From Mesostigma viride (taxonomy: Eukaryota > Streptophyta > Mesostigmatophyceae > Mesostigmatales > Mesostigmataceae): 64,000 nucleotides of DNA. A program made the position numbers and the translations under genes. This document shows, piece after piece, positions 23,860-63,725 of this stretch. The notes under the pieces were generated by a model. That model was not told the origin of the DNA. It ran no database searches and saw only the letters and a list, made by a program, of their open reading frames with translations. The number at the start of each line of letters is the position of its first letter. Positions within the stretch are counted from its first letter, which is position 1. The stretch covers positions 614,978 to 678,977 of the forward strand of contig RPFO01001162.1 in assembly GCA_009746045.1 (NCBI GenBank). Direction: 5' to 3'.

Positions 23860-23888
23860 GGGGTGGGTGGGTGGGTGGGTGGGTGGGG
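23860..23888. repeat. (GGGT)n run
   Basis: Seven GGGT units followed by more G runs (to 23901) could form a G-quadruplex on the plus strand. It lies inside CACTA-2. Confidence 0.85.
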
Positions 23889-24065
23889 GAAGGGGGGGGG
23901 GTTCCCCCTCCTTTGGCGGGTGTCAAGGGGGACATTGGTAGGGGTTGATGATTTAGTAGTTGTGGAACGCAGTTGTAAATGTGGGTAGCTCGTGCGTAGG
24001 TCACAGGTTCGTGTGAGGGGTGGGGATGCTTGGGTTGCCGTGGTGGCTTGCCTATGGTACGTAGG

Positions 24066-24244
24066 TGCCTGAATACAGTGGTGGGCAGGTGCACTTCGTG
24101 CACCCAGAGCAGGTGGCAGTTTACATTCCCCCACCTGCAAGAAGTAGCCAAGAGTGTATTAAAGGCCATATGCCCCTTCTCAGGGCTATGTGCTACATAT
24201 ACTCCCAACGGAGTTATGTTCCTAATAAATTAATTAATTAATTA
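24066..24244 (+). mobile_element. 5'-truncated LINE tail
   Basis: A 179-bp insertion flanked by a perfect 12-bp duplication ATGGTACGTAGG (24054-24065 and 24245-24256). It ends with the hairpin ACTCCCAACGGAGT and TTAA repeats, matching positions 1-77. This is the innermost layer of the nest in this region. Confidence 0.85.
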
Positions 24245-24256
24245 ATGGTACGTAGG

Positions 24257-28440: not shown

Positions 28441-28899
28441 TCGGGTTGTTGCATGCCATCTGAATATGTTCACTCCCCGTTGCCATTTTATCATACTAGT
28501 GTTGTGAGCTCAGAGCAATGGATGCATGATGCAGTGTTGTGATTCAGTGTAGATATTGACGATTTTACCTTTGATCAGCATGATGGATGCTTGGCCAGCG
28601 ATGGGTCGGAGGTTGACACTTGATGACCGTGATGATCATTGCCCTGAATGTTCAATATTGGTGTCTTAACATCCCAGTCGATATTTTTGCAATAAACCAT
28701 GTCTCCCACGGCTCATGACATTGTGGTGCATTTTATCATGCACCTGAGAGTGTTTCCAGCTTGTTTTGTCAGTTCCTTTCAGTACGCTTGCCCCGTACCG
28801 CTGCACGTGTTGTCTCTCCTGGCATTGCCACCTTGTCGTGTCCCACCTTGGCCTTTTCCTTCTCCGTCTCTGCTGCGCCACGCACTTCCTTGCTGCGGA

Positions 28900-29225
28900 T
28901 GTGCATTATGCGTGCTTTGTGATATATCACTTCCCCTGAGTGGTTGTGATTTATCACCTTGTCACATTTTGTTTTTCTGTGGGTTTGTGACATTTTGTGA
29001 CACTTTGACATTTTGTGATAGTGACGTTATCACAAAATATGCTGGTTTTATCACGTTTGTCACGTTTTATCACAATCATGACATGTCTCGATCACAATTT
29101 GTCACAGTTTTATCACATTTTGTCACATTTTGTCACGTTTTATCATTTTTTTATCACAAAATGTCACAAAAGTGACATTTTGTGATAAAAAAATATCACA
29201 AAATGTCACAGACCCCTTCCCGGTG
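28900..29225. repeat. Right subterminal repeat array of CACTA-2
   Basis: Repeated TTTGTGACA and TTTATCAC motifs run up to the right terminal inverted repeat, inverse to the left array. Confidence 0.75.
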
Positions 29226-31478
29226 CAGCAGGACATCCAGGTAAGCCTGGTAGTGAGACACATCCTCAGCATTGTCGTGCCTATCTACAGTGAGGAAAAC
29301 ATCGGCCCACACGCCGTCAGGGAAAAGTCCTAGGAAGGCCCAGTAGTACCTATGCTGTGTAAGAACGACCTGGCCCCGGGCCCAGTCCAGGAAACCGCAG
29401 GCAAAGAGGCGTAGGAAAGGCTCTACCGCGATCAGGCAGAGAGCCCGAAGGAGCAGGCGATGATACCGGATCCGAGGGCGCATACCCGTCGGGAAAAACA
29501 GATCTACCAGGGGCTCAACGTTGGACGGCCACAACCGGATGTGCCGAATCTCGCGGGAGCGCCACCGGCGGGCACACTGTCGCGACCCGAACGTCTCAAG
29601 GTAGTCGCTAGCCCGGGGAGGAGGATGACCCCGAGAGTCCAAACCCTGGCCCGGGATGGGCGCTGGACGACGGGCATCCCACTCTAGGATGGGCTGAAGG
29701 ACGGTGCTGTACGTGGCACCCGGCACCGCAGGAAAATCTACCGTAAGAGCATCTGAGGCCATAATGCCCAGAGGCGGAGGGTAAGCCCACTGGAACCCGC
29801 CGTAGGTGTCCAAGTCATTGTGGCGCCGCGCCCAGCGGTACAGGACGCGCCGAACCAGGATCTCACCCTGGAACACCGGATCAGCCAAAATAACCATGTC
29901 GAAAGGAGGCCGATCAGTCTCAACTGGTAGGTTACGGTCCCGCGGCGCCCGACACACCTGGGAGAACCCGTAGGACATGGGCGAAATGGCCAGCTCGGCG
30001 GAGGCGCGCGGCAGGTCACACTGGCGGCAAGCGAGCGCAGACATACCATACCCGAAGACAGGCGTGTCGCGCGACTCCGGAGTCGCATGCACCACAGAAG
30101 GGGCCCGATCCCGATCGCCCTCTGACAACTCCCGAAGGGAATCGGCAGCGCGGGTGGCGCGCGGGTCAGAGCCACTGGACCGAACAACCGCAGCCAAAGA
30201 CCGCGGGGCCGAAGGGGCAGGGGCCGACGAAGGGGTAGGAACCGGCACAGGCGCAGAAGGTGCCGGTACAACAGGGGGCCGCGTCGGACCCGAGGCCGCA
30301 GGGGGTCGCGACGGACCCGCCTCCGCAACTGGCGCGCCGGTCTCTGGGGGTGGAGCACCACCAGGCCACATGTTGAAAATAGGACCCGTGGGGACAGGCA
30401 ATCCGGCATACGACTGGTTACCGTCCAAGCTCCAGTCAGGCACCGGGATCCTCTGCGGAGGACCGCCCTCCCAAAGCCTGGGAAGACCGCCCGGGTCGCT
30501 GAAGAAACCCCGCGAGGGCGGCGCTGACGTGGTGGGCGGCTCGGACGCGGCGGCGGCGGGCGCTGCCACTGGGACGGCGGACTCGCGCCGAGGCGCAGGT
30601 ACGTCAGTAGCAGGCGCAGCGGTAGCCGAAGGCGTAGGAGCTGCAGCACCAGAGGGAACCGTAGAGACGAGAGGCGACCGAAGGGGAAGGGGGCACAGCT
30701 GCAACAGACACCCCACCTGGCGTGGCTGGAGCGTGCGCCTGGGCCGCCATGAAGGCCCCGAAGGCCGCCGTCAGGGACTGGATCTGCGCCTGCATCGCAG
30801 AAACTGTCGCCGCAAGAGGATCAGGCTCACGACCAGAGCCCGAAGGGGTAGGCTCCACCGATGCGCACAGGACCGACCTCGGTGAAGACGGGACAGGGGA
30901 AGGCGCCGACACTGAAGAGGAGGACGCCGCAGGGGAGGCCGAATACTCAGGGGAATACTGCGCCTCTACCGGCGCGTCCGTAGGGGTAGGGTCGCCAAAT
31001 CCTACACCCGCGTTCTGGTCTGCTATCTCCATGAACTCTACGGCCCGTAACAGGTCGCAGGGGTTCTCATCCAGCTCCGCATCACCCTCGGCAGGAAGCC
31101 AGGGGAACACATCCCGTAGGCAGGAGCGGCCCACAGGGGTAGAAAGGTAGGAAAACACCCTGGGGCACTGGAGAATCGCAGCTATCTGTCCCAGGGCTGG
31201 ACAGCTGGAGCCACATTCTAGCAAACAGTGGCCGGCATCGTCAAATCCGTGCAAAACAAGCTGATGCGGTTCAGCAGGGGAAGGACCGTACCACGTGACC
31301 CCGAAGAGAGCCGCCCTGACTAGGCCCGCATGCTGGGCCTGGAGGGCCGGATGCACGACGCCACCGGGAAACTAGACCGTGACACCCAACGGCCCGGAAG
31401 GGCCTCGAAGTACAGCTCAGGGTCCGGTAGGGGCAGGGACGGCAGCGGGCTCTCAGCCGGAGGGGTAGGCTCTGACAT
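29226..31478 (-). pseudogene. Gypsy B ORF3 (unknown), frameshifted and interrupted
   Basis: Homologous over its whole length to the gypsy A ORF3. Starts MSEPTPPAE at 31478, 77 bases after the IN-chromodomain stop, the same spacing as in A and C. The frame breaks near 31365 and near 30660 (in the Ala/Pro-rich linker), and CACTA-2 removes the last codons. The C-terminal region (about 29228-30080) is open. Several A/B differences I checked in this part are synonymous (for example CGT/CGC and ACG/ACA codons), which suggests past selection on the protein. Confidence 0.75.
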
Positions 31479-31554
31479 GACGGCTGCGGAGGGGAGGGGA
31501 CAACCAACCACCCGTCGACAGCAGACATAACATAAGAGAGGAGAAGGCCTACAA

Positions 31555-33236
31555 CTAGAGCTTGTGCAGGGTTTTATATTCCTGCAGCAGGCGACTACAC
31601 CCATCTAGCTCACTCTCCGTATACCAAACCTTATCTACTTCACTACGAGCATACATCCACTTCACTTTATACTGACGCTGGGTACCGCGGCCCTTTTTGA
31701 TATCTCTATGGGCCACGATGCTTTCTACTTCGTCTTCTACTTCCCCAGTGTCAGGGTTATGCTCTAAAGGGGCAGGCGCTAACTCCCTGCCAGCGAACGT
31801 ACTAGGATGGTACAGTTTAAGCTGGCTCCTATGGAAGGTGTTTGAATGCGTTTGCCAAGAGGTAGGGATATCGACTTTATATAAGAAATTTCCTACCCTA
31901 GACAACACATGGAAGGGTCCTAAGAAGGCGGGCCTAAGTTTGACCTTCAGTTCTGCTTCAAACTTATGAGCAAAACGGCCAACACGGGGGCCTTCTACTA
32001 ATACTAGATCTCCTATTTCTATCTCAGGTGCTCGTCTATCTAAGGAGGCACGCAACCTAGCAAGGTACTTAGCCTGAGCTTTTTGGTACCCTGAGATCGC
32101 GTGGTCATGAGCAGTTTTCATTCTATCTAGTAAGGACTGTACACCTTCTACAGTATCTCGGGACACATCATCCTTGTCCCGTAGAGGACTAGCTAAGAGA
32201 GAGGTAGGGGTAAGGGGCTGTCTACCAGTATCTAAGAAGAAGGGCGTATATCCATGCGCAGCTTGGGGACAATTGTTGAGGGAGAACTCTACCAAACATA
32301 AATAATCCTCCCAATCACTACCCGAGCCATTAACATAGTGCCTAAGCGCTTCTTCTACTACTCTATTAAGACGCTCTACTAAATGAGAGGAGGAGGAGTG
32401 GTAGGCAGTACCGTAGGTAACCTTGGTACCGATGGCAGCGAAAAACTGCTGCCAAAAATCTGAGGTAAATAATTTATCCTTATCACTAATAAACTGCCTA
32501 CTCAATCCATGATATCTATATACATTATTGAGGTATAGGCGTGCGCAATCACGTGCGGTGAGTTCTAAAGGACACGGCACAAGATGGCACATACGAGTAA
32601 AACGATCTATGAACACAAGGATTTGGGCATTGCCCCTATCATTCTTTCTAAAAGGTCCTACAAAATCCATCATGATAGAATCCCAAGGCATGATGGGGTC
32701 AGGCAAGGTCCTAGGTTCTGCTATCTGTCCTACATTATTGGGTTTCATTTCCTGGCAAGATTGACAAGTTCTAACATACTCATCTACATCCTTATAAAGG
32801 GAAGGCCAGTAATAAGAGCGGGCTACTAGGTCCCGTACCCGTTTACCACCCTGATGAGCAGCTAAGTCATGCAACTCAAAGAGCAAGGAGGAGCGACAGA
32901 TAGGAGGGACATACAGGCGCCATTGAGGGGGAGAATCTGCTATCTGCACATATAAAAACCCACCTACAAATTTACAAGGGTGCTTGCCTAATTGTTGGGG
33001 ATGTGCAGCAATGGCAGCTAATGCTTCCGGCTCAGTGGCCGTAAATCTACTAATAAGGCGTTCAAGATCAGAGGTAGGCATCGCTACAGAAGTATCCAGA
33101 ACAGGTTTAAAGAGATCTCCTACCGCCTTGCCAAAGAGAAGGGGAGGTCCTAGAGGGACTACGTTTTCATAAGACTTTCCTGACCTAGTCGCTATATGGC
33201 TAAGCGGTATAGAAATTTTATTTTTCCCCTCCCCCC
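31555..33236 (-). CDS. Gypsy B integrase with chromodomain
   Basis: An open frame from the G7 run (33231-33237) to the stop at 31555. It carries HHCC zinc binding (HDLAAHQG, CQSCQ) and a DDE catalytic core with D in MMDFVGPF, D in FISDKDKLFTSDFW and E in HLVERLNRVVEE. An SH3-like C-terminal region (IGDLVLVEGPRVGRF) precedes a chromodomain (VESIVAHRDIKKG, YKVKWMYARSEVDKVWY). The first ATG in frame is 33081, but the frame is open upstream to the G run and lies at -1 relative to RT-RH. Expression by frameshift as a Pol fusion is therefore more likely than independent initiation. Integrase joins element cDNA to the chromosome in the nucleus. This is the most intact copy in the window. Confidence 0.88.
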
Positions 33237-35706
33237 CACCGAGGCCACGGGAAGGGCCTCACACGGGAGAGAGAGTCCTACGTGAGAAAGGAGATCAGGC
33301 ATGCGAACAGCTGTATGAAAGAGGTAGGCATAGGATTCATCATCAGGTAGTTCACCATAAGGGGTTACACCCATAGTAGTAGGAACTAGAGTAGTATTGA
33401 GAACATCAAGGTCCTCGAAGAAGGAATAGTCTGCACGACGAGAGAGTGCATCTGGTACTATGTTATCTACACCCTTGACATACTGAAGTTTAAAAGGGGA
33501 AAACTGTGCTAAAAATTCCATCCAGCGCGCTTGCCGAGGGGTAAGGTTGGGTTGGGAGAGAAGATGGGTAAGGGGACGATGATCCGTTTGGATAACTAAC
33601 CTATAAGGATCTAGCTCACAGGGTTCATTCAGGCAGACATCAAATTGAGCACCTTTAAGGAAGTGCTGCCACGCGTGGCAACAATACACCACAGCTAAGA
33701 GTTCCTGCTGGTGTACGGGATAGTTACGCTCCGCAGGGAGCATTGTCCTAGAGATATACTCAATTGGCTGTAAGCCCTGACCCTGATCCTGGAGAAGGAC
33801 ACCACCTATAGCTACTTTACTAGCATCTGTAGCCACAACAAAGGGTTTAGTAGTATCCGGTAGGATGAGTACAGGAGGGGAAAGGAGTAGGGATTTTAGG
33901 CACTGAAAAGCCGACTGACATTCACTACTCCAAACAAAGGGGATATCCTTCTTTAATAAATGATTAATAGGGGCTGCTATAGTTGCGAAACGCGGGATAA
34001 AACGCCTATAGTAAGAAGCAATTCCTAGGAAACTACGTACACCTTTAACGTCGGTAGGAGTAGGCCATTCCTGAATTGACTTAGTTTTATCCGGGTCGGT
34101 AGCGACCCCGGCATCTGACAGAACGTGCCCTAAAAATGGGACACTCCTACCCGAACGCACTTTAGCACGGCGCGCCCACAAAGAATTTTCAGCCATTATT
34201 TCTAATACTTTCTTTAAATCACGTAGGTGCGTTTCAAAATCAGGAGAGTAAATAAGAATATCATCTAAGTAAGCTTGAGCACAAGAACGGTCATGCTCAG
34301 ATAAAGAAACAGAGGAGAAGGAAGGATCCTTTAGATCAGAGGACACCTGAGGAAGATGAGAATTTCCCATAACAGGTCTAAGCACTTCATTCATTAACAT
34401 TTGAAAAGAGGCAGGCGAGTTACAGAGTCCCATAGCCGCTACTCTAAACTGGTAATGACCAAAAGGGGTAGCAAAGGCGGTTTTATGGCAATCCTCAGGA
34501 GCTATCCGCAACTGCCAAAAACCATCCGCACAATCCAGTACTGTGAAACAAGTGGAACCTTTAACCTTATTAAATATATCATCAATACGAGGTAGAGGGT
34601 ATTTAGACTTCACAGTAATATCATTCAACTTCCTATAATCAGTAACTAGGCGAAACTTGCCATTTGGCTTAGGAACTAACAGGACACCAGCTGAGTAGGG
34701 GGAGTTACTAGGCTCTATCAATCCTGCTTCTAATAATGACACTAAAATCTGTTTTAGTTCCTTTAACTCGGTAGGGCCCATTCTATACATCGGAGAGTGC
34801 GTAGGAACTGCACCGTCCTTGATAACTACACGGTGTAAAACAGAACGAGGAGGAGGATAAGAAGGAGTCTTTTCTTCAAAAACCTTTGAGGAATCTATCA
34901 CAGCCATGTATCTTACTATTTCATTTTCAGTAAATCCCACTCCTATTGTATCCACTGTGTTTATATCTATATCCACACTATTATTAGTGATAGGTATCTC
35001 CTGTACTTCTAACTGAAGGAACATACATAATAAATATCCATATTCCTTTAGTTCAGAACGCAACTCATCATTGGACATTAATACTTCAGGTATAGGTCTT
35101 ACAGGAGGATCAACAGGTGTAGGAGGAGTAATATCTACCAAGGATAAATTTTCCAATCTATAATGACGTTCAGGTACCCAGTAAGAGCTATCTGGAAACC
35201 AAATGACCATGGTATCATAATTAATAGTAATCTTATTATCCTGGTGCCAATCTAATCCTAGTAATACATCAGCGGTAGTGATAGGGCCTATAGTGGCCGT
35301 CAGGTTGACAGTACGTCCTTGTATAACCATGGGAAGGGACACCGTACCCGGGGAATGACTGGTGCGACCATCAGCATAATGAACAGTAACGGGTTTGGTG
35401 TGAGGGGTAGGGACTAGTCCTAAACGCCTAACTAGGGCCTCGCTCACAAAGGAGCTAGCCGCACCGCTATCTACCAACACAGAGACATTCAAGAGTTCAT
35501 CAGCATGCAAGAAGGGTCTACAACAGTGTGAGGGACGGTTAAACCACCATTCAAGAACATAAGAGGACGCACACGTAGTGGTAGGGAAGATTCAGCTCCT
35601 ACAGAGGTTATAAAAACAGGCAGGCAAAAATTTTTATCTGGGGTACTATCTAAGGACCTGTCCAGGTTACCCCCGGCTGACAGGCCTACTGTTCCCCCTC
35701 CCCCCC
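33192..35706 (-). pseudogene. Gypsy B protease-RT-RNase H (one shift near 35513)
   Basis: The order is protease (LVDSGAASSFVS), RT fingers/palm (LVPKPNGKFRLVTDYRKLN, FTVLDCADGFWQLRI, YLDDILIYSPDF) and Ty3 RNase H (FVVATDASKVAIGGVLLQDQ, VIQTDHRPL, VPDALSRRA). 772 codons are open from 35510 to 33192. Upstream, one A of AAAGGG is missing near 35513 relative to gypsy A, breaking the link to the gag overlap. The RT and RNase H active-site residues are intact. The frame ends just past the G7 run at 33231-33237. Confidence 0.88.
33231..33237 (-). promoter_or_regulatory. Candidate -1 frameshift site between RNase H and integrase
   Basis: The minus strand reads GTG GGG GGG AGG in the RNase H frame, containing the heptamer G-GGG-GGG. 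The integrase frame is -1 and is open across the run. The same seven G are present in gypsy A (18636-18642). X-XXY-YYZ heptamers of this form allow tandem slippage. No downstream pseudoknot was modelled. Confidence 0.5.
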
Positions 35707-37412
35707 CAAATCCATAGGAACTAACCCCGAAGAAGACCCTGGCGAAAAAGCCACTGCTGGAGGGTCACGAGGGAGCGAAGAGGGTGCGGGAGCCTGATTA
35801 TCATAGGGGAACCCTGGGGATCCTGTCTGCACAGCATTCAGCCTACTAGGGGTAGCTGAAGGAATGCGTCCTGAAGTAGGACGAATAGGAGCACGCTGAG
35901 GGGTACGAGGAGGGCGAGCGTCGGGATGAGGGGGAGCACCCGAAAGGAACTTGGGGCACTCACGTTTAAGATGACCTACTTCCTTACAATGATAGCATGT
36001 GATATGAGAGACATCAAGGGCTGAAAGGTCAGTAACACAGATATCTAATTCTTCTACATAGGAGTTCTCCTCCTCAGGGGTAAGGATAATATTATTAATA
36101 CGGGAACGGGTAGGAAGAGAAGGGGTGGTGAAGAAATCTGCTACACGCAAGAGATGCTGGCGCACATGCTTGAGGGGCAGATCAGTAAAACGGTAGGCAG
36201 AGAACTGGCGCTTGACTTCACGTAATAAGGGTCTACTGAGGCCTTGGAGGAAGCGAGCACGTACTTCTGCACCCGACAAATCCCTAATTCGTACCATCTG
36301 AGCATCAAACTCTTTCATATACTCCTTAAATGATTTAGTACCCTGCTGCAAGGTACCAAAGGCTAATCTATCCTGCCAATCTGAATCAGGAGGGACTAAA
36401 TGGTTCTCTAAACGCTTAAACAATTCTGCTACAGAGTTAGGGTAGGCATGAGAGGCCAAAGACTCACACTGAATGAGGTTAGCAAGCTCAGGAGTAATAC
36501 AGGTTGTGAGATAGTGAGGAACTAATACAGCATCAGAAAGACGCCATCTATTATGATTCTGCCACGACTCGTGTTCTGGGTAAGCAACATAATAAAGGTG
36601 AAAAACTGTTGAGGGGTAGACTTGACATCCAGCTTGGGAAGGTTAGCAAAGAGGGGAAGAGCAGGGGGCTTAGGGGGATTAGAAGAGTCAGTTTTTCCCA
36701 TAGGGCCACTATCTTCCACTGCTACATAAGCGGGATAGAAGGAAGGAAGAGGAAAAGTCTTGGGTAGGGGTCTAGAAGGGGCCACCGTTTCAGGCTGGTG
36801 CCCATAAGAGAAGGGGACAGTATATTGCTCACGAAGAGAGGAATAGGCAAAATGATCATAATTTCTGTCATCTAAGGGCATGGTGCTGAAATCACTATTA
36901 ACTTCTAAATCAGCCACACGGGTAGGGACCTGGGCTGCCTCATAGGCCGTCTCAGGGTAGGACCAGGAAGCAGGTGGGTAAAAGGGAACTGCACTAGGGC
37001 GCCCAGAAGGACCGACAGGGGCAGAGGCACGACCCGTGTTAAGAGCAGGCATGGAAGGCACAGGGTGGGAAGGAGGCCTAAAAACATTGTTAGTTAGTGA
37101 GGACCTGCTGGAGGGTTGAGCCAAGGTTGCAGGAGGGGCAGGGGCCTGGTTCAGGGTAAGGGAAGGGTCATCACTAAATCTGACTTGCATACGTTGACGT
37201 TGTTCATAGGTAGGAGGGGTAAGTGAGGGACGACGGCGACCATCAGCAAGAGGAGAAGGAGGTGAGGCACGAAGGTTACCTTGAGGAGTGAGATGGTGCA
37301 CCGTTTCAAGTGAGTCCCGTCGGTTACCACGATTGTTGTTATTATTATTATTATTATTCATAGTAGGAGTATTGGTAGGTATAGGCGACATGTTACCACC
37401 CACTGGATCCAT
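35686..37412 (-). pseudogene. Gypsy B gag, one frameshift
   Basis: Starts MDPVGGNMSPIPTNTPTM at 37412 with an Asn-rich run, then a Pro/Ser-rich region, a capsid-like domain (SWQNHNRWRL region, then FKRLENHLVPPDSDWQDRLA and FKEYMKEFDAQMV), a CCHC knuckle (C-Y-H-C-K-E-V-G-H-L-K-R-E-C) and a tail ending at 35686. One base is missing near 36582, shifting the frame before SWQNHN. Gypsy A has a different lesion (two extra bases) a few codons away, so the consensus is one frame of about 575 residues. Gag forms the cytoplasmic particle and binds RNA. Confidence 0.85.
35700..35707 (-). promoter_or_regulatory. Candidate -1 frameshift site between gag and protease
   Basis: The minus strand reads TTG GGG GGG GAG in the gag frame, giving a G-GGG-GGG heptamer 12 bases before the gag stop. 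The protease frame is -1 and open across it. The identical eight-G run occurs in gypsy A (21102-21109). Confidence 0.55.
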
Positions 37413-37535
37413 TTTTGTTTAAGTAAATGATCAAAAATCTAACTGAAAGCAACAAGGATAAAGGACAAGGCCTAATAAAGGCAAGGAAAGAAAAGAAAAA
37501 GCTTTTAATGGCTTAAAAGAAGGAAACAATTTAAA
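37413..37535 (-). other. Spacer between ORF0 and gag in gypsy B
   Basis: About 120 purine-rich bases (minus strand pyrimidine-rich) with no ORF, conserved in gypsy A (46837-46961). It separates two ORFs in different frames, so gag needs reinitiation, an internal entry site or a separate transcript. Confidence 0.5.
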
Positions 37536-37928
37536 TCAATCCTTTTTAACAACAGTAATGGATAGGGAACCGAATTCTAAGGTGAGAGGAGTATCTAAGC
37601 TAGATGAGGATGCAGCCCTCTTAGGGGGAGACGAAGGAGGGGTAGCAAAATCTAGAGCTTCTACAGGAGGGCGACCATGAGGAGTAGAACGTACGTGTAG
37701 GCCTAGATCTGATACGCTATGGTCTATAAGGAATTGTTGAGCTTCCTCGAAGGTAACAAATTTCTTATACCTAATTACATTATATGTACGATTTTGCACT
37801 ATCTTCCTAGCATCTGACCAAGAGAGGAAAATGGCTGACCATTGAGGGGTAATAACTACGTAATACTTAGCTAAACTATTATCACTAGATGAATGGGAAG
37901 GCGCAGTAAAAACACGACGTTGACTCAT
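37536..37928 (-). CDS. Gypsy B ORF0: RNase H1 N-domain/viroplasmin-like protein
   Basis: An intact 130-residue ORF upstream of gag. Residues about 20-65 (LAKYYVVITPQWSAIFLSW, then RYKKFVTFEEAQQFL) match the pattern of the RNase H1 hybrid-binding domain and the caulimovirus viroplasmin domain: KYYVV at the start, a xIxxSWxxA middle, and a YKKF-x-FEEAxxFL end. In known proteins this fold binds RNA/DNA hybrids or double-stranded RNA. The rest is a Pro/Ser-rich tail (PPSSPPKRAASSSSLD). Gypsy A has a full homologue, intact but clearly diverged, so the ORF is maintained. Its presence as a separate product in a chromovirus is unusual. The assignment is by eye, without a profile search. Confidence 0.7.
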   Translation of the reverse strand: MSQRRVFTAPSHSSSDNSLAKYYVVITPQWSAIFLSWSDARKIVQNRTYNVIRYKKFVTFEEAQQFLIDHSVSDLGLHVRSTPHGRPPVEALDFATPPSSPPKRAASSSSLDTPLTLEFGSLSITVVKKD

Positions 37929-38444
37929 GATAACTCACCTGGCGTGTCTTGTGATGTCAAGCTAGACGAGGTAGGGGTAGGCGACTTAGCTGGACGATCT
38001 GGATCACCGAAAGAAGAAGGAGGGCGGAAGTTTCCAGCTCTCGTCCTAAGTCAGCGGCCGGATATCCAGCGCTCGTCCTAACACAGCGCCCCGTAACTCT
38101 GCGGGTGCGGCCGTCTAATAAAGCAGCAGCACAAGGAAAAAGGTGTAGGTACTGCGACGCTAATCGTCTCCGAACAGTAATACTCCCCTATCTAAGACAG
38201 GAAACAACCGTAAGCAGGAAAACAAGGCGAAGGACAGGCTAACTACGAAAGGATTTATCCGCTGTGAGCAGGTCTAGCTTCTAGGTAGAGCGTGTCCCGA
38301 AACGGGCAGCACTACTCTCCTAGCTTGAAGGCGACCCGCCCATTACCTATCAAGGAAGTGTCGACTTCTTGTTCCTGGACGCGGAAGGGGTCTTGAAAAG
38401 GTGTATGTGGCAAGGGATAGTCGTCTCGTTCACTACCTACTGAA
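37929..38444 (-). other. Gypsy B leader
   Basis: About 520 bases between the primer-binding site and ORF0, with no long ORF. It probably contains packaging and dimerisation signals. Confidence 0.5.
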
Positions 38445-38459
38445 GTTCCTCCGGAACCA
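38445..38459 (-). other. Candidate primer-binding site of gypsy B
   Basis: The minus strand reads TGGTTCCGGAGGAAC starting one base after the 5' LTR. The TGG start would pair with a tRNA CCA end. Gypsy A has TGGACTCGGAGGAAT at the same place (47891-47905). The tRNA was not identified. Confidence 0.5.
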
Positions 38460-38460
38460 T

Positions 38461-39033
38461 TGTTACGCCGCGGATATCTACCTCCACCTCTACCTCTAAT
38501 GGGCCTGATACTACCTAAACTGGTCAGGCCTCCTCTACTTAACCCTCTGGCGAAAGACGAACGTGACGGAGCTGATCTCAATGCATTAACGTAAGTGTTA
38601 CTATAATACGCCATACAACCATTTATCAAAACCCGTTTACTCCAGGAATAGAGGAAGGAAACACAACTACACTGCCGTGACCCAAGCCTAAATGTGTCAA
38701 TTCATTTAACACACGCCGAGTGCACACACAAGGGGTAGAACACGCATAAATGGTCACCAACGGTCCAACACGCTCGGGCCGACATGGCCCTCGCCTACAG
38801 ATGCACGCTGGTCCACTACATCTACTGATGCACGCTGGTCCACTACATTCTACCACAGGATCAGGACCACTGGTAAAGTACGCGGCGTGGCGCCCAACGG
38901 CACCCAATGTACCACAGTACTGTTACGAGGACAATAATGTCCCGGTAGGAGCCTAAACGTAAACCTAGGGACAACCGAGGCAAAAGACCTAATTTACGTC
39001 CGTAACTACAACGAATTGTTACGCGACGTAACA
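38461..39033 (-). repeat. Gypsy B 5' LTR
   Basis: 573 bp, TGTTACG to CGTAACA, differing from its partner by one base and one indel. Directly followed by TSD AGCAT. Confidence 0.94.
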
Positions 39034-39864: not shown

Positions 39865-40442
39865 TGTTACGCCGCGGATATCTACCTCCACCTCTACCTC
39901 TAATGGGCCTGATACTACCTAAACTGGTCAGGCCTCCTCTACTTAACCCTCTGGCGAAAGAAGAACGTGACGGAGCTGATCTCAATGCATTAACGTAAGT
40001 GTTACTATAATACGCCATACAACCATTTATCCAAAACCCGTTTACTCCAGGAATAGAGGAAGGAAACACAACTACACTGCCGTGACCCAAGCCTAAATGT
40101 GTCAATTCATTTAACACACGCCGAGTACACACACAAGGGGTAGAACGCGCATAATAAATGGTCACCAACGGTCCAACACGCTCGGGCCGACATGGCCCTC
40201 GCCTACAGATGCACGCTGGTCCACTACATCTACTGATGCACGCTGGTCCACTACATTCTACCACAGGATAAGGACCACTGGTAAAGTACGCGGCGCGGCG
40301 CCCAACGGCACCCAATGTACCACAGTACTGTTACGAGGACAATAATGTCCCGGTAGGAGCCTAAACGTAAACCTAGGGACAACCGAGGCAAAAGGACCTA
40401 ATTTACGTCCGTAACTACAACGAATTGTTACGCGACGTAACA
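39865..40442 (-). repeat. Gypsy C 3' LTR
   Basis: 578 bp, TGTTACG to CGTAACA, with the short tandem duplication shared with B. A polypurine tract (minus strand) follows at 40443. Confidence 0.93.
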
Positions 40443-40813
40443 CCTCCCCCCCCACAAAGGTAGGGAGCCCTCTCCCTACGCACAGGGAGGAAAACAAGGG
40501 GTAGGAAACCTAATGCACCCAGCACACACTAACACAGTCAGCAGGCCATCCAAGATACAAGGCACCAATAGTTCACACGGTCTCCACCACCACGCCTGGA
40601 GGTGTAGGGTTAGCCAGCACCAAGCCTGGTGGTAGGTTCCCCTAACTGCCTGGAACAAAGTCCTTGCCGGGGGGGGAACGGCACTGGGCAGGACACACAG
40701 AGTAAACCAATCAGCACCAAGGACCAAGAACGACCAGTCAACTGGCCAGAACATGAGGGCGACTCTACATACCGGAGGGACAACACCCTCAGGACGGGCC
40801 TAAGGCCCTCTAT

Positions 40814-43106
40814 CTAATGGCCATCCGTCTGGTAGGTACCACGGGAGGCCAGCAGGACATCCAGGTAAGCCTGGTAGTGAGACACATCCTCAGCATTGTC
40901 GTGCCTATCTACAGTGAGGAAAACATCGGCCCACACGCCGTCAGGGAAAAGTCCTAGGAAGGCCCAGTAGTACCTATGCTGTGTAAGAACGACCTGGCCC
41001 CGGGCCCAGTCCAGGAAACCGCAGGCAAAGAGGCGTAGGAAAGGCTCTACCGCGATCAGGCAGAGAGCCCGAAGGAGCAGGCGATGATACCGGATCCGAG
41101 GGCGCATACCCGTCGGGAAAAACAGATCTACCAGGGGCTCAACGTTGGACGGCCACAACCGGATGTGCCGAATCTCGCGGGAGCGCCACCGGCGGGCACA
41201 CTGTCGCGACCCGAACGTCTCAAGGTAGTCGCTAGCCCGGGGAGGAGGATGACCCCGAGAGTCCAAACCCTGGCCCGGGATGGGCGCTGGACGACGGGCA
41301 TCCCACTCTAGGATGGGCTGGAGGACGGTGCTGTACGTGGCACCCGGCACCGCAGGAAAATCTACCGTAAGAGCATCTGAGGCCATAATGCCCAGAGGCG
41401 GAGGGTAAGCCCACTGGAACCCGCCGTAGGTGTCCAAGTCATTGTGGCGCCGCGCCCAGCGGTACAGGACGCGCCGAACCAGGATCTCACCCTGGAACAC
41501 CGGATCAGCCAAAATCACCATGTCGAAAGGAGGCCGATCAGTATCAACTGGTAGGTTACGGTCCCGCGGCGCCCGACACACCTGGGAGAACCCGTAGGAC
41601 ATGGGCGAAATGGCCAGCTCGGCGGAGGCGCGCGGCAGGTCACACTGGCGGCAAGCGAGCGCAGACATACCATACCCGAAGACAGGCGTGTCGCGCGACT
41701 CCGGAGTCGCATGCACCACAGAAGGGGCCCGATCCCGATCGCCCTCTGACAACTCCCGAAGGGAATCGGCAGCGCGGGTGGCGCGCGGGTCAGAGCCACT
41801 GGACCGAACAACCGCAGCCAAAGACCGCGGGGCCGAAGGGGTAGGGGCCGGCGAAGGGGTAGGAACCGGCACAGGCGCAGAAGGTGCCGGTACAACAGGG
41901 GGCCGCGTCGGACCCGAGGCCGCAGGGGGTCGCGACGGACCCGCCTCCGCAACTGGCGCGCCGGTCTCTGGGGGTGGAGCACCACCAGGCCACATGTTGA
42001 AAATAGGTCCCGTGGGGACAGGCAATCCGGCATACGACTGGTTACCGTCCAAGCTCCAGTCAGGCACCGGGATCCTCTGCGGAGGACCGCCCTCCCAAAG
42101 CCTGGGAAGACCGCCCTGGTCGCTGAAGAAACCCCGCGAGGGCGGCGCTGACGTGGTGGGCGGCTCGGACGCGGCGGCGGCGGGCGCTGTCACTGGGACG
42201 GCGGACTCGCGCCGAGGCGCAGGTACGTCAGTAGCAGGCGCAGCGGTAGCCGAAGGCGTAGGAGCTGCGTTACCAGAGGGAACCGTAGTAGACGCAGAGG
42301 CGACCGAAGGGCCGAAGGGGGCACAGCTGCAACGGACACCCCACCTGGCGTGGCTGGAGCGTGCGCCTGGGCCGCCATGAAGGCCCCGAAGGCCGCCGTC
42401 AGGGACTGGATCTGCGCCTGCATCGCAGAAACTGTCGCTGCAAGAGGATCAGGCTCACGACCTGAGCCCGAAGGGGTAGGCTCCACCGATGCGCACAGGA
42501 CCGACCTCGGTGAAGACGGGACCGGGGAAGGCGCCGACACTGAAGAGGAGGACGCCGCAGGGGAGGCCGAATACTCAGGGGAATACTGCGCCTCTACCGG
42601 CGCGTCCGTAGGGGTAGGGTCGCCAAATCCTACACCCGCGTTCTGGTCTGCTATCTCCATAAACTCTACGGCCCGTAACAGGTCGCAGGGGTTCTCATCC
42701 AGCTCCGCATCACCCTCGGCAGGAAGCCAGGGGAACACATCCCGTAGGCAAGAGCGGCCCACAGGGGTAGAAAGGTAGGAAAACACCCTGGGGCACTGGA
42801 GAATCGCAGCTATCTGTCCCAGGGCTGGACAGCTGGAGCCACATTCTAGCAAACAGTGGCCGGCATCGTCAAATCCGTGCAAAACAAGCTGATGCGGTTC
42901 AGCAGGGGAAGGACCGTACCACGTGACCCCGAAGAGAGCCGCCCTGACTAGGCCCGCATGCTGGGCCTGGAGGGCCGGATGCACGATGCCATCCGGGAAA
43001 CTAGACCGTGACACCCAACGGCCCGGAGGGCCTCGAAGTACAGCTCAGGGTCCGGTAGGGGCAGGGACGGCGGCGGGCTCTCAGCCGGAGGGGTAGGCTC
43101 CGACAT
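40814..43106 (-). pseudogene. Gypsy C ORF3 (unknown), frameshifted
   Basis: Homologous end to end with the ORF3 of A and B. MSEPTPPAE at 43106, stop at 40814. One base is missing near 43027 (CGGAGGGCC against CGGAAGGGCC), and there are indels in the Ala-rich linker around 42240-42330. The lesions differ from those in A and B, so the ancestral ORF was open. Confidence 0.75.
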
Positions 43107-43182
43107 GACGGCTGCGGAGGGGAGGGGACAACCAACCACCCGTCGACAGCAGACACAACATAAGAGAGGAGAAAGCCTACAA

Positions 43183-44663
43183 CTAGAGCTTGTGCAGGGT
43201 TTTATATTCCTGTAGCAGGCGACTACACCCATCTAGCTCACTCTCCGTATACCAAACCTTATCTACTTCACTACGAGCATACATCCACTTCACTTTATAC
43301 TGACGCTGGGTACCGCGGCCCTTTTTGATATCTCTATGGGCCACGATGCTTTCTACTTCGTCTTCTACTTCCCCAGTGTCAGGGTTATGCTCTAAAGGGG
43401 CAGGCGCTAACTCCCTGCCAGCGAACGTACTAGGATGGTACAGTTTAAGCTGGCTCCTATGGAAGGTGTTTGAATGCGTTTGCCAAGAGGTAGGGATATC
43501 GACTTTATATAAGAAATTTCCTACCCTAGACAACACATGGAAGGGTCCTAAGAAGGCGGGCCTAAGTTTGACCTTCAGTTCTGCTTCAAACTTATGAGCA
43601 AAACGGCCAACACGGGGGCCTTCTACTAATACTAGATCTCCTATTTCTATCTCAGGTGCTCGTCTATCTAAGGAGGCACGCAACCTAGCAAGGTACTTAG
43701 CCTGAGCTTTTTGGTACCCTGAGATCGCGTGGTCATGAGCAGTTTTCATTCTATCTAGTAAGGACTGTACACCTTCTACAGTATCTCGGGACACATCATC
43801 CTTGTCCCGTAGAGGACTAGCTAAGAGAGAGGTAGGGGTAAGGGGCTGTCTACCAGTATCTAAGAAGAAGGGCGTATATCCATGCGCAGCTTGGGGACAA
43901 TTGTTGAGGGAGAACTCTACCAAACATAAATAATCCTCCCAATCACTACCCGAGCCATTAACATAGTGCCTAAGCGCTTCTTCTACTACTCTATTAAGAC
44001 GCTCTACTAAATGAGAGGAGGAGGAGTGGTAGGCAGTACCGTAGGTAACCTTGGTACCGATGGCAGCGAAAAACTGCTGCCAAAAATCTGAGGTAAATAA
44101 TTTATCCTTATCACTAATAAACTGCCTACTCAATCCATGATATCTATATACATTATTGAGGTATAGGCGTGCGCAATCACGTGCGGTGAGTTCTAAAGGA
44201 CACGGCACAAGATGGCACATACGAGTAAAACGATCTATGAACACAAGGATTTGGGCATTGCCCCTATCATTCTTTCTAAAAGGTCCTACAAAATCCATCA
44301 TGATAGAATCCCAAGGCATGATGGGGTCAGGCAAGGTCCTAGGTTCTGCTATCTGTCCTACATTATTGGGTTTCATTTCCTGGCAAGATTGACAAGTTCT
44401 AACATACTCATCTACATCCTTATAAAGGGAAGGCCAGTAATAAGAGCGGGCTACTAGGTCCCGTACCCGTTTACCACCCTGATGAGCAGCTAAGTCATGC
44501 AACTCAAAGAGCAAGGAGGAGCGACAGATAGGAGGGACATACAGGCGCCATTGAGGGGGAGAATCTGCTATCTGCACATATAAAAACCCACCTACAAATT
44601 TACAAGGGTGCTTGCCTAATTGTTGGGGATGTGCAGCAATGGCAGCTAATGCTCCGGCTCAGT
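43183..44663 (-). pseudogene. Gypsy C integrase-chromodomain, 5'-deleted
   Basis: 464 codons are open from 44577, encoding the zinc region, DDE core and chromodomain almost identically to gypsy B. The N-terminal codons carry a one-base loss near 44652 and are then fused to LTR sequence at 44664. With no upstream gag or RT it cannot be expressed as Pol. Confidence 0.88.
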
Positions 44664-45132
44664 GGCCTGATACTACCTAAACTGGTCAGGCCTCCTCTAC
44701 TTAACCCTCTGGCGAAAGACGAACGTGACGGAGCTGATCTCAATGCATTAACGTAAGTGTTACTATAATACGCCATACAACCATTTATCCAAAACCCGTT
44801 TACTCCAGGAATAGAGGAAGGAAACACAACTACACTGCCGTGACCCAAGCCTAAATGTGTCAATTCATTTAACACACGCCGAGTACACACACAAGGGGTA
44901 GAACGCGCATAAATGGTCACCAACGGTCCAACACGCTCGGGCCGACATGGCCCTCGCCTACAGATGCACGCTGGTCCACTACATCTACTGATGCACGCTG
45001 GTCCACTACATTCTACCACAGGATAAGGACCACTGGTAAAGTACGCGGCGCGGCGCCCAACGGCACCCAATGTACCACAGTACTGTTACGAGGACAATAA
45101 TGTCCCGGTAGGAGCCTAAACGTAAACCTAGG
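44664..45132 (-). repeat. Gypsy C 5' LTR, truncated part
   Basis: LTR sequence missing its first 45 plus-strand bases, ending at the TSD CTAGG (45128-45132) of the palindromic composite. It resumes at 46165-46234. Confidence 0.92.
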
Positions 45133-45344
45133 AGTTATTATAAATAGTGACGGAACCTTTTTGCCACTTGGCAATTAGGTCCGTCACTATTTATCCGGCG
45201 AAAACCACTCGCCGGCATCTATTCCGCGTTAAGTTCACGTGAACGTGGCGCGGAATTGATGCCGGCGAGTGGTTTTCGCCGGATAAATAGTGACGGACCT
45301 AATTGCCAAGTGGCAAAAAGGTTCCGTCACTATTTATAATAACT
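45133..45344. repeat. Palindromic unit P1
   Basis: A near-perfect 212-bp palindrome around the centre GTTCACGTGAAC. Each arm is itself a hairpin (AATAGTGACGGA pairing with TCCGTCACTATT around TTGCCACTTGGCAA), so one strand can form a three-branched structure. The only asymmetry is beside the centre (GCGTTAA against GTGGCGC). P2 (45543-45754) is the same orientation, P3 (45953-46164) the opposite. Confidence 0.92.
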
Positions 45345-45754
45345 AAAACGTCGTAGTGTGGGGGCCGATATCTATCGTACCGCTGATGCCTACTGCAGTA
45401 CCGAATCTCGCCTTAACGATATTCCAACCGGGCATATTTTCCCTTCTGGCACTTTCGTTTGGCCTTCTGGTATCAATTCCTTCCGGTATTCGGAAATACC
45501 CGTGTCACCACAGGGATTCGAACCCCCGACTTACGAGGTCTTAGTTATTATAAATAGTGACGGAACCTTTTTGCCACTTGGCAATTAGGTCCGTCACTAT
45601 TTATCCGGCGAAAACCACTCGCCGGCATCTATTCCGCGTTAAGTTCACGTGAACGTGGCGCGGAATTGATGCCGGCGAGTGGTTTTCGCCGGATAAATAG
45701 TGACGGACCTAATTGCCAAGTGGCAAAAAGGTTCCGTCACTATTTATAATAACT

Positions 45755-45952
45755 AAGACCTCGTAAGTCGGGGGTTCGAATCCCTGTGGTGACACGGGTA
45801 TTTCCGAATACCGGAAGGAATTGATACCAGAAGGCCAAACGAAAGTGCCAGAAGGGAAAATATGCCCGGTTGGAATATCGTTAAGGCGAGATTCGGTACT
45901 GCAGTAGGCATCAGCGGTACGATAGATATCGGCCCCCACACTACGACGTTTT
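45755..45952 (+). other. Passenger unit T with tRNA 3'-half-like sequence
   Basis: T begins with AAGACCTCGTAAGTC, which could be an anticodon stem-loop (GAC-CTCGTAA-GTC, anticodon CGT). It is followed by a T-arm-like segment with the B-box GGTTCGAATCC. The D-arm half is absent and the variable loop nearly so; P2 abuts exactly at the anticodon arm. The remaining 150 bases are unrecognised. T1 (45345-45542) is its exact inverse. The 62-76-residue ORFs here are mirror shadows of the tRNA-like sequence. Confidence 0.6.
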
Positions 45953-46239
45953 AGTTATTATAAATAGTGACGGAACCTTTTTGCCACTTGGCAATTAGGT
46001 CCGTCACTATTTATCCGGCGAAAACCACTCGCCGGCATCAATTCCGCGCCACGTTCACGTGAACTTAACGCGGAATAGATGCCGGCGAGTGGTTTTCGCC
46101 GGATAAATAGTGACGGACCTAATTGCCAAGTGGCAAAAAGGTTCCGTCACTATTTATAATAACTCTAGGGACAACCGAGGCAAAAGGACCTAATTTACGT
46201 CCGTAACTACAACGAATTGTTACGCGACGTAACAACAGT

Positions 46240-47906: not shown

Positions 47907-48397
47907 TGTTACGCCTCGGGTATCTACCACTACCTCTACCTCTACCTGGCCTGATGCTACCTAAACTAGTCAAGCCACCTCTAGTTAAACCCCTAGCGAA
48001 AGACGAACGAGACGATCCAGATCTCAATGCATTGACGTAAGTGTTACTATAATACGCCATAAGCCATTTACACAACCCGTTTACTCCAGGAATAGAGGAA
48101 GGAAACACAACTACACTGCCGTGACCCAAGCCTATATGTGTTAATTCATTTAACACACGCCGAGTGCACACACGAGGGGTAGAACGTGCATAAATGGTCA
48201 CCAACGGTCCAACACGCTCGGGCCGACCTGGCCCTCGCCTACCGATGCACGCTGCATGGTCCACTACATTCTACCAAAGGATGAGGACCACTAATAAAGT
48301 ACGCGGCGCGGCGCCCAAAGGCACCCAATGTACCACAGTACTGTTACGAGGACAATAATGTCCCGGTAGGAACTACACGTAAACCTAGGGACAACCG
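47907..48397 (-). repeat. Gypsy A 5' LTR, first part
   Basis: Matches the 3' LTR at 13637 with about ten differences. Interrupted at TAGGGACAACCG by the full-length LINE. The LTR resumes at 53616-53673, where a 10-base stretch before the terminal TAACA is deleted. Confidence 0.92.
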
Positions 48398-50267: not shown

Positions 50268-53200
50268 CGTGCGCACCCTCCCTGCAGATCCTTCTACGAG
50301 CGGCGGCACCCCAGCACGCCAACGCGTCGACGAGCTGATCGCCCTGTGCGCCGACAACAAGATCGCTGTTCTTGGAGTCCAGGAGCACCGACGCACCGTT
50401 GACCCTCAGCACGCGGTCAACGGTCTGCTGGTCGACGACCTGCGGCAGGCTGGCGGTTCCACTATGGTGGCGGCGACGCGCCGGGCCAAGGTGGTGTGGG
50501 CCTCTTGTGCTCGCCGGCAGCATCAGAGCAGCTCCAGTCCATCGTGCTGCGGTCCCCGCGTGTGCTAGTGGCCACTTTTTCGGCCACTGAGGGCCATTCA
50601 CACCACACGCTAACCGTTATCGTGGGATATGCACCACATGCGGGTCGAGCTCAGGCGGAACGTGAGGCCTTCTTCGACGCCCTCAAGGAGGAGGAGGCCA
50701 ACATCCCAGCTCGGCACTTCCTGGTTATGCTGCTCGACGCCAACGCCACGCTGCCAGTTGGCACTGGGGGCGCTCAGTATTCCCCAACCAACACGACAGC
50801 CAACGGTAACACGCCTTTATTTGCGAATCTGCTGGCAGAATCTGCGCTGGTTGCATGCAATGCTTCTTTCGCACGCCCCGCTGAGCAGCTGGCCACCTTT
50901 TTTGGGCCGTCGGATCGGGTGGTGTGCCTTGATTATGTCTGCGTACGTCGGGCTCAGCGCCCCTCAGTTGTCGATGCTCGCGTCCTGCAAGATTCTGTCA
51001 GCACGGTGGAATCTGATCATCGTCTCGTGCTCGCTCGCATCAGATTGCGGTTTCCTGGGGTGAAACCGTCGCGACAGCTGGCACCTCAGCCAGATCTGAA
51101 AGTGCTCCGGATTGTGCTGAAGGATGCCGACAAGATGTCAGCAGCAGAGCAGGCCGCTATGTCGCACAGGGATGATTTCCTGGCCGTATTCGACGCCGGG
51201 GGCAGCCGACAGCAGTTACACGCCATTCCGCCGCCGGGGGATATTTCAGTGATCCTCCGTGGTGTCGCCGCCAAGTATCGCCTGGCTGCCCGCACCCTCC
51301 CCACCTTGCCTCCGCGTCGGCAGCTTGCTGTCCACCGTCACGCACCGACAGTGGTCGCCGCCAGGCAGATGCTCCGCCGCAACAGAGATCCGATCGCCAA
51401 ACCTGGGCTGCAAGCAGCTCTGAGGGCCGCCTACGAGCAGGCTGAGAAGGCAGATGCTCAGCAGATGGTCAAGGACCTGCGCAGCTGCCAGCAGAAGCAC
51501 GACGGCAAGGGGGCCTGGTTCTGGTACAAGCGCCTCGGGCACCCGGACGGCCTCGGCCGGCCCCACCGCCACGACGTCCCCGGCGCCCCAGCCAAGCGGC
51601 TTCGTACCTGGGCCACGGCCACGGCCGAGGTCGTGGGGACAGCTGCGCCGCCCCCACCCCTGCTCCCAGCCGCCGCCGCCCGCCCGGCCGCCCTGGCCGG
51701 CCCCGCAGGGCCCCCGGCCCCGCCTAGGTCAGCGGCGGACTACCTAGTCCCCCCGCTGGTCGGCCCACTTGGCGACCCGTCTGACATGCCTCCTTTCACC
51801 TCTCGCGAGGTCACGGAGGCGGTCCAGCGCCTGCGTTATGACGCAGCCACCGGCTCTGACGAGATTCCGGCCGCAGTTGTAAAACTTGCAGCCGAATTCG
51901 AGGACACAGGTGTTATGCTGCTCTTCCGGGACATCTGCAACCGCCTTCTGCTGTCGTCGCAACCACCTCCAGCGGCCTGGCAACACAGTTTTCGCACGAT
52001 GCTGTACAAGAACAAGGGGTCGCCTGCCGACCCCGGCAACTACAGAGGGGTGTGCATTCAAAGTGCCCCCCTCAAGCTTCTTATGCGGCTCATCCTGAAC
52101 CGCCTGCGCACGGCCCTGGACGGTCACCTCAGCGAGACTCAGCACGGCTTCCGTTCAGGTCGCAACACAGTACAGGCGCTCTTCGCTACTCGCCGACTGG
52201 TGGAGGAACTGCAACGCCTTCAGCCTGGTGAGTCCCCTTTGCACCTTGTGCTGGTGGACTTCATCAAAGCCTTCGATTCGGTTTTCTGGCCTGCGCTTTG
52301 GGACATCCTCGAGTTGTTCCGGATCCCCCGCCCCCTGATTGCTGTCATCCGCAACCTGTATGAAGGGTCCACCACTTCGGTGCGCACTTCTTACGGGACC
52401 ACGCCCCCATGCCCTTTACAGAAGGGTGTGTGGCAGGGCTGCGTGCTGTCGCCCTACCTGTTCATTATTGTTGTCGAATACGTAATGATTCAGGCGCGCA
52501 AGCGATTTGCCCGCATCGTGGGCAGGGAACCAGGAGTGCAGGTTGCTAACAAATTCTGGCATGGCGGTGCGGACACGGAGATTCGGCTAGCAGACATCAT
52601 TTACGCAGACGACACCACCCTCTTCGAGGACACTGAGCACGTGCAGACATGGCTTGACTGCCTGGCTCTCGAGGCCCGTGCAGTGGGGCTTGAGGTCAGC
52701 AAGAAGACAGAGGCCCTGGCGGTTGGGCTCACCAACCCAGCGCCGCCCCTCTATCTCCTAGACGGCTCTCGAGTCCTGTATCGGGACCGCGTTAAGCTGC
52801 TGGGCAGCCTGCTCCCTAGCTGCGAGGTTGATGTGGACCACCGCATCTCCCTCGCCTGGCACGCTTTACGCCAGTACCGGGCCCTGTGGCGCAAGCCCCT
52901 GGGCAAGATCGAGAAACAGGACCTGTTCAAGGTCCTCGTCCTTCCTGTTCTCACGTATGGCGCCGAGACGTGGACCCTCACCGCCGACCTGGCCCGCAAG
53001 CTGGACGGCGCGGTCACCAGCATGCTGCGTTCCATTTTCAGAGTAGGATATGCTGCTCATGTCCGCAATGAGGACCTGTACCAGGGCATGCCCTATATCA
53101 CCAGCACAATTAAGCAACGCCGCCTGCAGCTAGTAGGGCACCTAGCTCGCACCAACCAGGTAGACACCTCACGTGGCCCCCCCGCAGGACTGCGACCAGC

Positions 53201-53429
53201 CCAGCCTGGCCGGCACCTCCTGACGTGGGCTGGGCCCAGTGATGTTAGACGCCGCAAGGCCCGCACCTTCAAAGAACAGCTAGTAGAGGACATGGGGGGC
53301 CTAGGCCTCTCCGTGATTTGGAAGAAGATGATGGACAAGGCCAAGTGGGCCCAGGTCATAGAGGACAACGAGCCCCCCCCAGTGGGGAAGCGCCCGCGTG
53401 TGCAATCCCGCGGGAGGCACGCCAGATAG
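50222..53429 (+). pseudogene. LINE ORF2: endonuclease-reverse transcriptase, one frameshift
   Basis: The endonuclease begins LGIASFNVRTLPADPST (about 50250) and contains LGVQEHRR. It shifts frame near 50490 and then continues unbroken for 977 codons. Endonuclease motifs LLDANATLP and TVESDHRLVLARIRL are followed by the RT with KNKGSPADPGNYRGV, DFIKAFDSVFW, QKGVWQGCVLSPYLF and IIYADDTTLFED. The C-terminal region has TYGAETWTLTADL and IKQRRLQLVGHLAR, ending at 53429. All RT catalytic Asp residues are present. ORF2 nicks target DNA and primes reverse transcription there. A single one-base lesion separates it from an open frame of about 1,060 codons. Confidence 0.88.

Positions 53430-56777: not shown

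Positions 56778-63725
<6,948 letters not shown>

Follow-up and report, generated by a model that had tools for sequence, protein, structure and literature searches.

A composite element built from palindromes lies at positions 45133-46164 of the stretch of Mesostigma viride DNA that we analyzed (64,000 nucleotides, hereafter the window). Three palindromes (P) alternate in it with two inverted copies of an internal unit (T), and it belongs to a dispersed family that moves as a whole, duplicating exactly 5 bp of target, with the inverted dimer as its usual mobile unit. Within a copy the two arms co-vary, and in three elements arms of different families were joined through a central palindrome before insertion. 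On balance we lean towards a family of non-autonomous DNA transposons that moves as the inverted dimer and whose arms would be copied by fold-back at the central hairpin.

Results

Anatomy of the composite element

The unit is 1032 bp long and reads P1-T1-P2-T2-P3, with P of 212 bp and T of 198 bp, exactly as the initial annotation had drawn it. P1 (45133-45344) is a near-perfect palindrome whose outer end, AGTTATTATAAATAGTGACGG, is the end of the element; it is followed by T1 (45345-45542, reverse strand, box-B-like end towards P2), the central palindrome P2 (45543-45754), T2 (45755-45952, forward strand, AAGACC...GTTTT) and P3 (45953-46164). CTAGG stands on both flanks, at 45128-45132 and, identically, at 46165-46169. 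T1 and T2 are exact reverse complements, P1 and P2 are equal in sequence, and P3 matches P1 exactly once reverse-complemented. The near-identity of the repeats and palindromes that had been judged by eye is therefore real, but the palindromes are not perfect: every P departs from symmetry at the same eight core positions. The self-complementarity of the whole unit, whose palindrome arms measure 517 nt when one flanking base is counted in each, is broken at eight positions only, forming four mismatched pairs, each within the P2 core (45630, 45639, 45640, 45642, 45655, 45657, 45658, and 45667). Allowing up to three mismatches, a 19-base P end occurs six times in the window, whereas dinucleotide shuffling of the window (100 replicates) gave a mean of 0.01.

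The internal unit is not featureless. Its ends (45345-45364 and 45523-45542 in T1) are imperfect inverted repeats in which 14 of the first 20 bases match, and among 20,000 Markov shuffles a fraction of 5e-5 did as well; a single P-T-P thus has inverted repeats consisting of P plus about 20 bp. Folding with DNA parameters gives two hairpin arms for half of a P, besides the full-length hairpin of P, and the hairpins nested in each half have a 15-bp stem (P 8-22/48-62) and a 7-bp stem (P 63-69/77-83).

Target site and local history

The element sits in the right-hand LTR (44664-45132 plus 46170-46234) of a Ty3/gypsy chromovirus copy on the reverse strand (approximately 39866-46234), in which Pfam recognizes reverse transcriptase, integrase, and chromodomain. 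The same LTR is found uninterrupted, with a single CTAGG, at 14114-14118, 21906-21910, 38965-38969, and 40373-40377, and a fifth, more diverged copy, also without insert, reads through at 48385-48389. Since these insert-free copies carry the unfilled site, CTAGG is a true target-site duplication. The left LTR of the host chromovirus is itself free of the insert, and in 537 aligned columns its only differences from the right LTR are one substitution and a 3-bp gap. The palindromic element must therefore have arrived after its host retrotransposon, and recently.

The surrounding region (window 13600-48400) consists of nested copies of one chromovirus, with an LTR of about 577 bp (TGTTACG...CGTAACA) and several long internal repeats that are 94-99% identical. 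By eye, its insertions are bounded by 5-bp duplications, AGCAT for the copy at about 21401-39033 and ACAGT for the host copy at about 39866-46234. The best matches to the chromovirus polymerase are 63-76% identical, and no relative of it was found among the viral contigs searched. Searches with this polymerase, with the LINE of the window, and with a citrate-transporter fragment yielded no close relative from a named source. The letters GTTA are common to the end of the palindromic element (AGTTA) and to the chromovirus LTR end (TGTTA), a weak lead towards shared use of an integrase. The flanks of one dispersed copy (L032, G000:C113:2166647-2168883; gatgacctac ... cctacttcctta) match chromovirus internal sequence near window 35970, so that the chromovirus may have been struck at another position too.

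Two further features lie to the right. A 977-aa open frame at 50496-53429 encodes a non-LTR reverse transcriptase (RVT_1), with five relatives at E <= 0.001 among 7990 candidates scored, the best being 34% identical. A 70-bp mini-element at 61635-61704 has related ends (AGTTTTGCTAAATAGTG...ACTATTTAGCACAACT) and, by eye, ATATC on either side; it is apparently a further small element with this type of end, bounded by a 5-bp duplication of its own.

A dispersed and mobile family

We searched the assembly from which the window comes (440 Mb, 2243 contigs). The exact 21-base P end matches 792 times genome-wide, and its reversed control not at all. From 290 first-look candidates 40 were scored, and 34 of them, the window included, are full-length units of 1014-1049 bp. 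The analysis below rests on 57 places: the window, 39 copies from the search with the dimer, 16 places from a list of P ends in contig order, and one found by a subsequent pattern search. Around the isolated P ends (L061-L063), stretches of 9 kb were examined for P and T. Because 40 of the 57 were found by searching with the dimer itself, the sample favors dimers. The contig-ordered list takes the first 100 of the 792 matches; it comprises 23 places, which were not picked by their likeness to the dimer.

Mobility is evident from the insertion sites. Identical 5-bp flanks enclose the element in 52 of the 52 places that have both of its ends, at 43 distinct sites; the other five places are cut by a contig end (L054), truncated (L055 and L059), or degraded (L061 and L063). 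All 34 full-length copies have the ends AGTTATT...AATAACT. The expectation of a mobile unit with 5-bp duplications is thereby borne out by dispersed P-T-P-T'-P copies, and the worry that the structure might be an artifact or a one-off event falls away with 792 P ends and target duplications at 43 sites. A rearrangement confined to a single locus is ruled out by the dispersed copies in the whole-genome search.

Two places call for separate comment. At the site with duplication TCCAT, counted once among the 43, L023-L025 and L035-L037 hold unlike elements (about 2-3% apart) at the same position, in flanking repeats whose likeness from one set to the other is only 86-90%; possibly one target site was used repeatedly. 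In L061 (2128-4068) about 1.4 kb of other DNA interrupts an old P, and the two pieces of P overlap slightly at the break (P 46-53), as an insertion of foreign DNA would leave with a duplication of about 8 bp.

The inverted dimer as the usual unit

Ignoring pieces of T under 90 bp, the T content of the 57 places is T- T+ in 44, T1+ only in three, T1- only in two, T- T- T+ in two, and T- T+ T+ in one; two have no T, and three are joined between families. All 44 same-family places with two T's, duplicated loci included, have the order T- P T+, and so do all 12 full two-T copies among the 23 places of the contig-ordered list, as far as the matches listed go. Inversion had been pictured as a single doubling event; with one orientation in 44 of 44 places, the inverted dimer is instead the ordinary state of the family.

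Other forms do occur. P stands alone in L062, with its own duplication CCCCC; L051, 475 bp long with duplication ACCAG, has a single T; and 5-bp duplications also bound each of the elements with three T's, L048 and L049 (T- T- T+) and L043 (T- T+ T+). Several copies, e.g., L042, L044-L046, and L047, have deletions within one P and still show the duplications. Shortened P variants of about 69 bp are present in L043, L047, L049, and L051 and look like internal deletions between repeated 15-mers of P. The solo-P, single-T, and triple-T forms suggest that ordinary recombination between P's probably acts too.

Related families and heterodimers

Two diverged families with the same plan were revealed by L056 and L053. 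Their T's start with AARACCT, carry the box-B-like GGTTCGAATCC, and end in GGTTTT. Since the ends of T, this motif, and the terminal TTTT recur in both families, T belongs to the element and is not, as had been supposed, a passenger mobilized by hairpin elements. Perfect palindromes of 206 bp are found in the P of family 3 in L053 and the P of family 2 in L064. Compared with their own reverse complements, the family 2 P of L056 (185 bp) shows 21 mismatches and the family 3 P of L064 (207 bp) shows 121 in an ungapped count.

Three elements are heterodimers. L056 combines a family 1 arm with a family 2 arm (duplication GTCTT), and by eye the switch between families lies at the center of family 1's P. 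GTCTT is also the last five bases of T ahead of the central P; the GTCTT of the right flank does not continue as T. L064 combines families 3 and 2 (CCCAT). L053 combines families 3 and 1 (CCGGG), with family 3 joined to the center of family 1's P, most of its own P lost, and the T's running in the same direction. Each of the three has its own matching 5-bp duplication, and the arms were consequently joined before insertion.

Co-variation of the two arms

We compared the left arm with the reversed right arm in the 34 full-length copies; counting one copy per duplicated locus, plus L035, these amount to 28 insertions. The T haplotype, defined by seven shared variable sites, is the same on both arms in 22 of the 28 and unlike in the other six. 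When the pairing of arms was shuffled, same-haplotype pairs averaged 5.7, with a maximum of 13 in 20,000 shuffles. Correspondingly, T differs by a mean of 1.3 within a copy versus 3.0 between copies. Diverged copies are often symmetric outside the P2 core: L023-L025, at 10 substitutions from the window copy, and L040, at 14 substitutions and two gaps, all have eight self-mismatches and no self-gap. L041 differs from the window copy by 32 substitutions and one gap and has only 10 self-mismatches and two self-gaps. The eight core positions are identical between P1 and reversed P3 in 24 of the 28 insertions, the exceptions being L020, L038, and L039 (single sites or a gap) and L028, in which one core is flipped.

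The relation between arms is not absolute. In the tree, 12 of the 28 arm pairs are exclusive sisters, in line with co-variation. The partner is the nearest arm, ties included, in only 11 of 28 cases. Outside the P2 core, 27 insertions yield 117 variant rows, of which 16 are only symmetric, 73 only one-armed, and 28 both; within P the rows depend on one another, since both members of a palindrome pair enter the count and a single 4-bp insertion is spread over several rows. Variants present in more than one insertion number 31, of which none is symmetric throughout, 28 are mixed, and three are one-armed throughout; among the 86 private variants 16 are symmetric and 70 are not. Together, the haplotypes, variant rows, and tree indicate that most copies are like-armed and about a fifth are clear mixtures, with post-insertion mutation adding noise. 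Unlike arms can persist: in the duplicated loci L021/L022, with flanks 99-100% alike, the elements are identical and keep the same unlike arms, and the duplicated copies L035-L037 likewise keep their arm differences.

Pol III-like motifs

In naming motifs we relied on what we take to be the A-box and B-box consensus sequences. The box-B-like GGTTCGAATCC is located at 45514-45524 in T1 (reverse strand) and 45773-45783 in T2 (forward strand). The A-box-like TTGCCAAGTGG of the central P, one mismatch from the presumed consensus, lies at 45574-45584 for the left arm (reverse strand) and at 45713-45723 (forward strand), where it starts 60 bp ahead of the box-B-like motif. The outer ends of the T's are TTTT, Pol III terminator-like, at 45345-45348 (reverse strand) and 45949-45952 (forward strand). 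Over the 68 arms of the 34 full-length copies, duplicated loci included, the box-B-like motif is exact in 63, the A-box-like motif in 60, and GTTTT directly adjoins a P in all. From these motifs it is possible, as a weaker part of our reading, that each T may be a Pol III unit transcribed away from the central P.

We also considered known small RNA genes. No tRNA was found in the window by ARAGORN (bacterial code), and a tRNA or tmRNA gene was rejected, as none was found and no tRNA model matches; Rfam models match just a 13-15 nt T-arm-like piece, at chance E-values. A microRNA precursor was likewise rejected: Rfam matches to MIR6426 and others fall far below the curated scores and reflect the long hairpin only.

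Discussion

A fold-back model and its alternatives

In the fold-back model that we prefer, each arm would run from an outer P through T to the middle of the central P. The AGTTA ends would be recognized by a transposase or integrase whose gene lies elsewhere, and which would insert a linear double-stranded form. A duplication fixed at 5 bp suggests that an integrase or DDE enzyme acted on linear double-stranded ends, and our guess is that the enzyme may be retroviral-integrase-like or another DDE enzyme making 5-bp staggers. The hairpin step we infer: before insertion the central P would fold into a hairpin, and the arm would be copied back on itself from there, the second arm being a fresh copy of the first. 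By analogy, such fold-back copying at a hairpin would be expected to yield an inverted dimer whose arms are alike and meet in one central palindrome. Heterodimers would derive from occasional strand switching, or from two arms joined at the palindrome center, and the solo-P, single-T, and triple-T forms would come from recombination between P copies. That fold-back replication could generate the structure had been suggested from the outset; arm co-variation favors the suggestion and falls short of proving it. Against simple fold-back stands L053, whose T's run in the same direction, an arrangement that it does not give.

A broader version is conceivable, although we think the balance lies against it. 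The element would then represent a hairpin-replicating superfamily of eukaryotic mobile elements, with copies born as fold-back inverted dimers and inserted by an integrase-type enzyme with a 5-bp stagger, and with the possibility of arm exchange between families where the hairpin turns. Such a system would parallel the rolling-hairpin replication of parvoviruses, but in the chromosome and without a coat, and Pol III might transcribe outward from the hairpin.

Arm co-variation can also arise by arm-to-arm gene conversion inside the inserted palindrome, and conversion after insertion is the main rival to fold-back. The double-stranded dimer would then move by MITE-like cut-and-paste, its arms would be kept alike later by conversion, and recombination between P's would produce the length variants. 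This needs no special replication and suits the existence of solo-P, one-T, and three-T forms, the copies that are mosaic within an arm, and the occurrence of 28 of the 31 shared variants in both symmetric and one-armed state. We nevertheless regard it as the less likely of the two, given that the duplicated loci L021/L022 and L035-L037 retain unlike arms and that the three cross-family heterodimers, with their matching 5-bp duplications, were joined before insertion.

The dimer might alternatively descend from unequal crossing over: T would be inverted by recombination between P's, a crossover of inverted and non-inverted alleles would give P-T-P-T'-P, and later copies would be descendants of that product. 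Such an event would keep one pair of target duplications, a palindromic P recombines in both orientations, and the triple-T arrays of L048, L049, and L043 show that further arrangements occur. It could account for a first dimer but not for the subsequent 44 of 44 fixed orientation plus arm co-variation; as a continuing process it should leave T orientation mixed, and the sampled excess of T- P T+ speaks against this, so that we hold it to be improbable. Equally improbable, if not more so, is composite transposition, whereby any two outward AGTTA ends would mobilize the DNA between them and breaks in central palindromes would fuse neighbors into heterodimers. The family 3/family 1 join in L053, with its own P mostly lost and its T's in the same direction, is of the kind that such a process would leave; L056 and L064, on the other hand, keep T- P T+ with box-B ends towards the center, which random composites would not. 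As the initial annotation cautioned, perfect palindromes are a known artifact of assembly and sequencing, which here would be a fold-back read or a graph walk through a palindrome. We give this explanation practically no credence: a fold-back would mirror the flanks too, and instead 5-bp duplications are seen at 43 different sites; independent copies differ in sequence; assembly contigs reach 14.3 Mb; and the assembly separates a 3.8-kb repeat at 99.2% identity inside the window.

Comparison with known systems

MITEs and other non-autonomous transposons with terminal inverted repeats (TIRs) are short, have no recognized gene, end in inverted repeats, make a target duplication of constant length, and are present in many copies. 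The element shares their constant 5-bp duplication (52/52) and fixed terminal inverted repeats and departs from their simple TIR-internal-TIR unit, its usual unit being P-T-P-T'-P. Its repeats are themselves palindromes, the inverted dimer has a third, central palindrome, and the arms co-vary. As it has the MITE features tested save the unit plan, we place it with the non-autonomous DNA transposons. TRIMs, which are small LTR retrotransposons, are built as repeat-internal-repeat, duplicate 5 bp of target, and also occur as solo repeats and in tandem arrays. Here, however, the ends are AG...CT rather than TG...CA, the T's are inverted, and P is palindromic; by eye, no primer-binding site was recognized in the element. 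The variable-length target duplications of tRNA-derived SINEs contrast with 5 bp in 52 of 52 places.

Polintons/Mavericks and polinton-like viruses have AG at their ends and 5-6 bp duplications; the element has no Polinton gene and is too short for one. According to the portion of the source cited, these viruses and transposons have a retroviral-type integrase, and Ginger/Tdd elements have Gypsy-integrase-like enzymes and long TIRs, with termini that follow TGTNR in Ginger and 5-bp duplications in TDD-4 and TDD-5 (PMC2836005). Compared with that description, our element shares the 5-bp duplication of TDD-4/TDD-5 and has AGTTA ends instead of TGTNR. With Foldback-like elements and Galileo, as covered by the parts of the two sources cited, it shares very long inverted repeats that make up much of the element and a variable repeat structure, and those parts make no mention of a central palindrome common to two inverted internal units in Galileo (PMC4168063, PMC2955051). 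Galileo target duplications are given there as 7-8 bp (PMC4168063), unlike the 5 bp seen here.

No element with the P-T-P-T'-P plan was found in the literature searched, in keeping with the first impression that no described family has it. Sequence searches, in collections from which records of the same or very near genomes may be absent, gave no match to four DNA patterns among viral contigs, to two patterns among genome contigs in a check for prokaryotic origin, among phages (distant mode), or among plasmids (near mode).

The closest parallel in working may be adeno-associated virus (AAV). We know of no constant 5-bp target duplications in AAV, and the element is much smaller and lacks a Rep or capsid gene. 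As far as the cited part of the AAV account describes it, the viral end is multi-palindromic, with two small arm palindromes within a larger one, and next to its 125 bases stands a D sequence, one at each end; an inverted (duplex) dimer with the terminal repeat at its symmetry axis arises when the hairpin is not nicked (PMC1131931). Set beside that part of the account, our element likewise has a palindromic end and an inverted dimer with one shared central palindrome, and the inverted repeats of P-T-P, P plus about 20 bp, recall the 125 bases plus D. On this analogy, the resemblance appears to be a likeness of working, not of descent.

Significance

The hairpin idea can be tested from sequence alone, because every copy contains an internal control, namely two arms expected to be identical at birth. 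Heterodimers and mirrored cores provide natural markers for strand switching at hairpin tips. If the idea is true, hairpin-copying transposons would link DNA transposons with parvovirus-like replication, and if the hairpin step were shown, the element family would deserve a class of its own. At minimum, this is a structurally unusual and apparently young transposon family, which shows that long palindromes are carried and kept in a eukaryotic genome.
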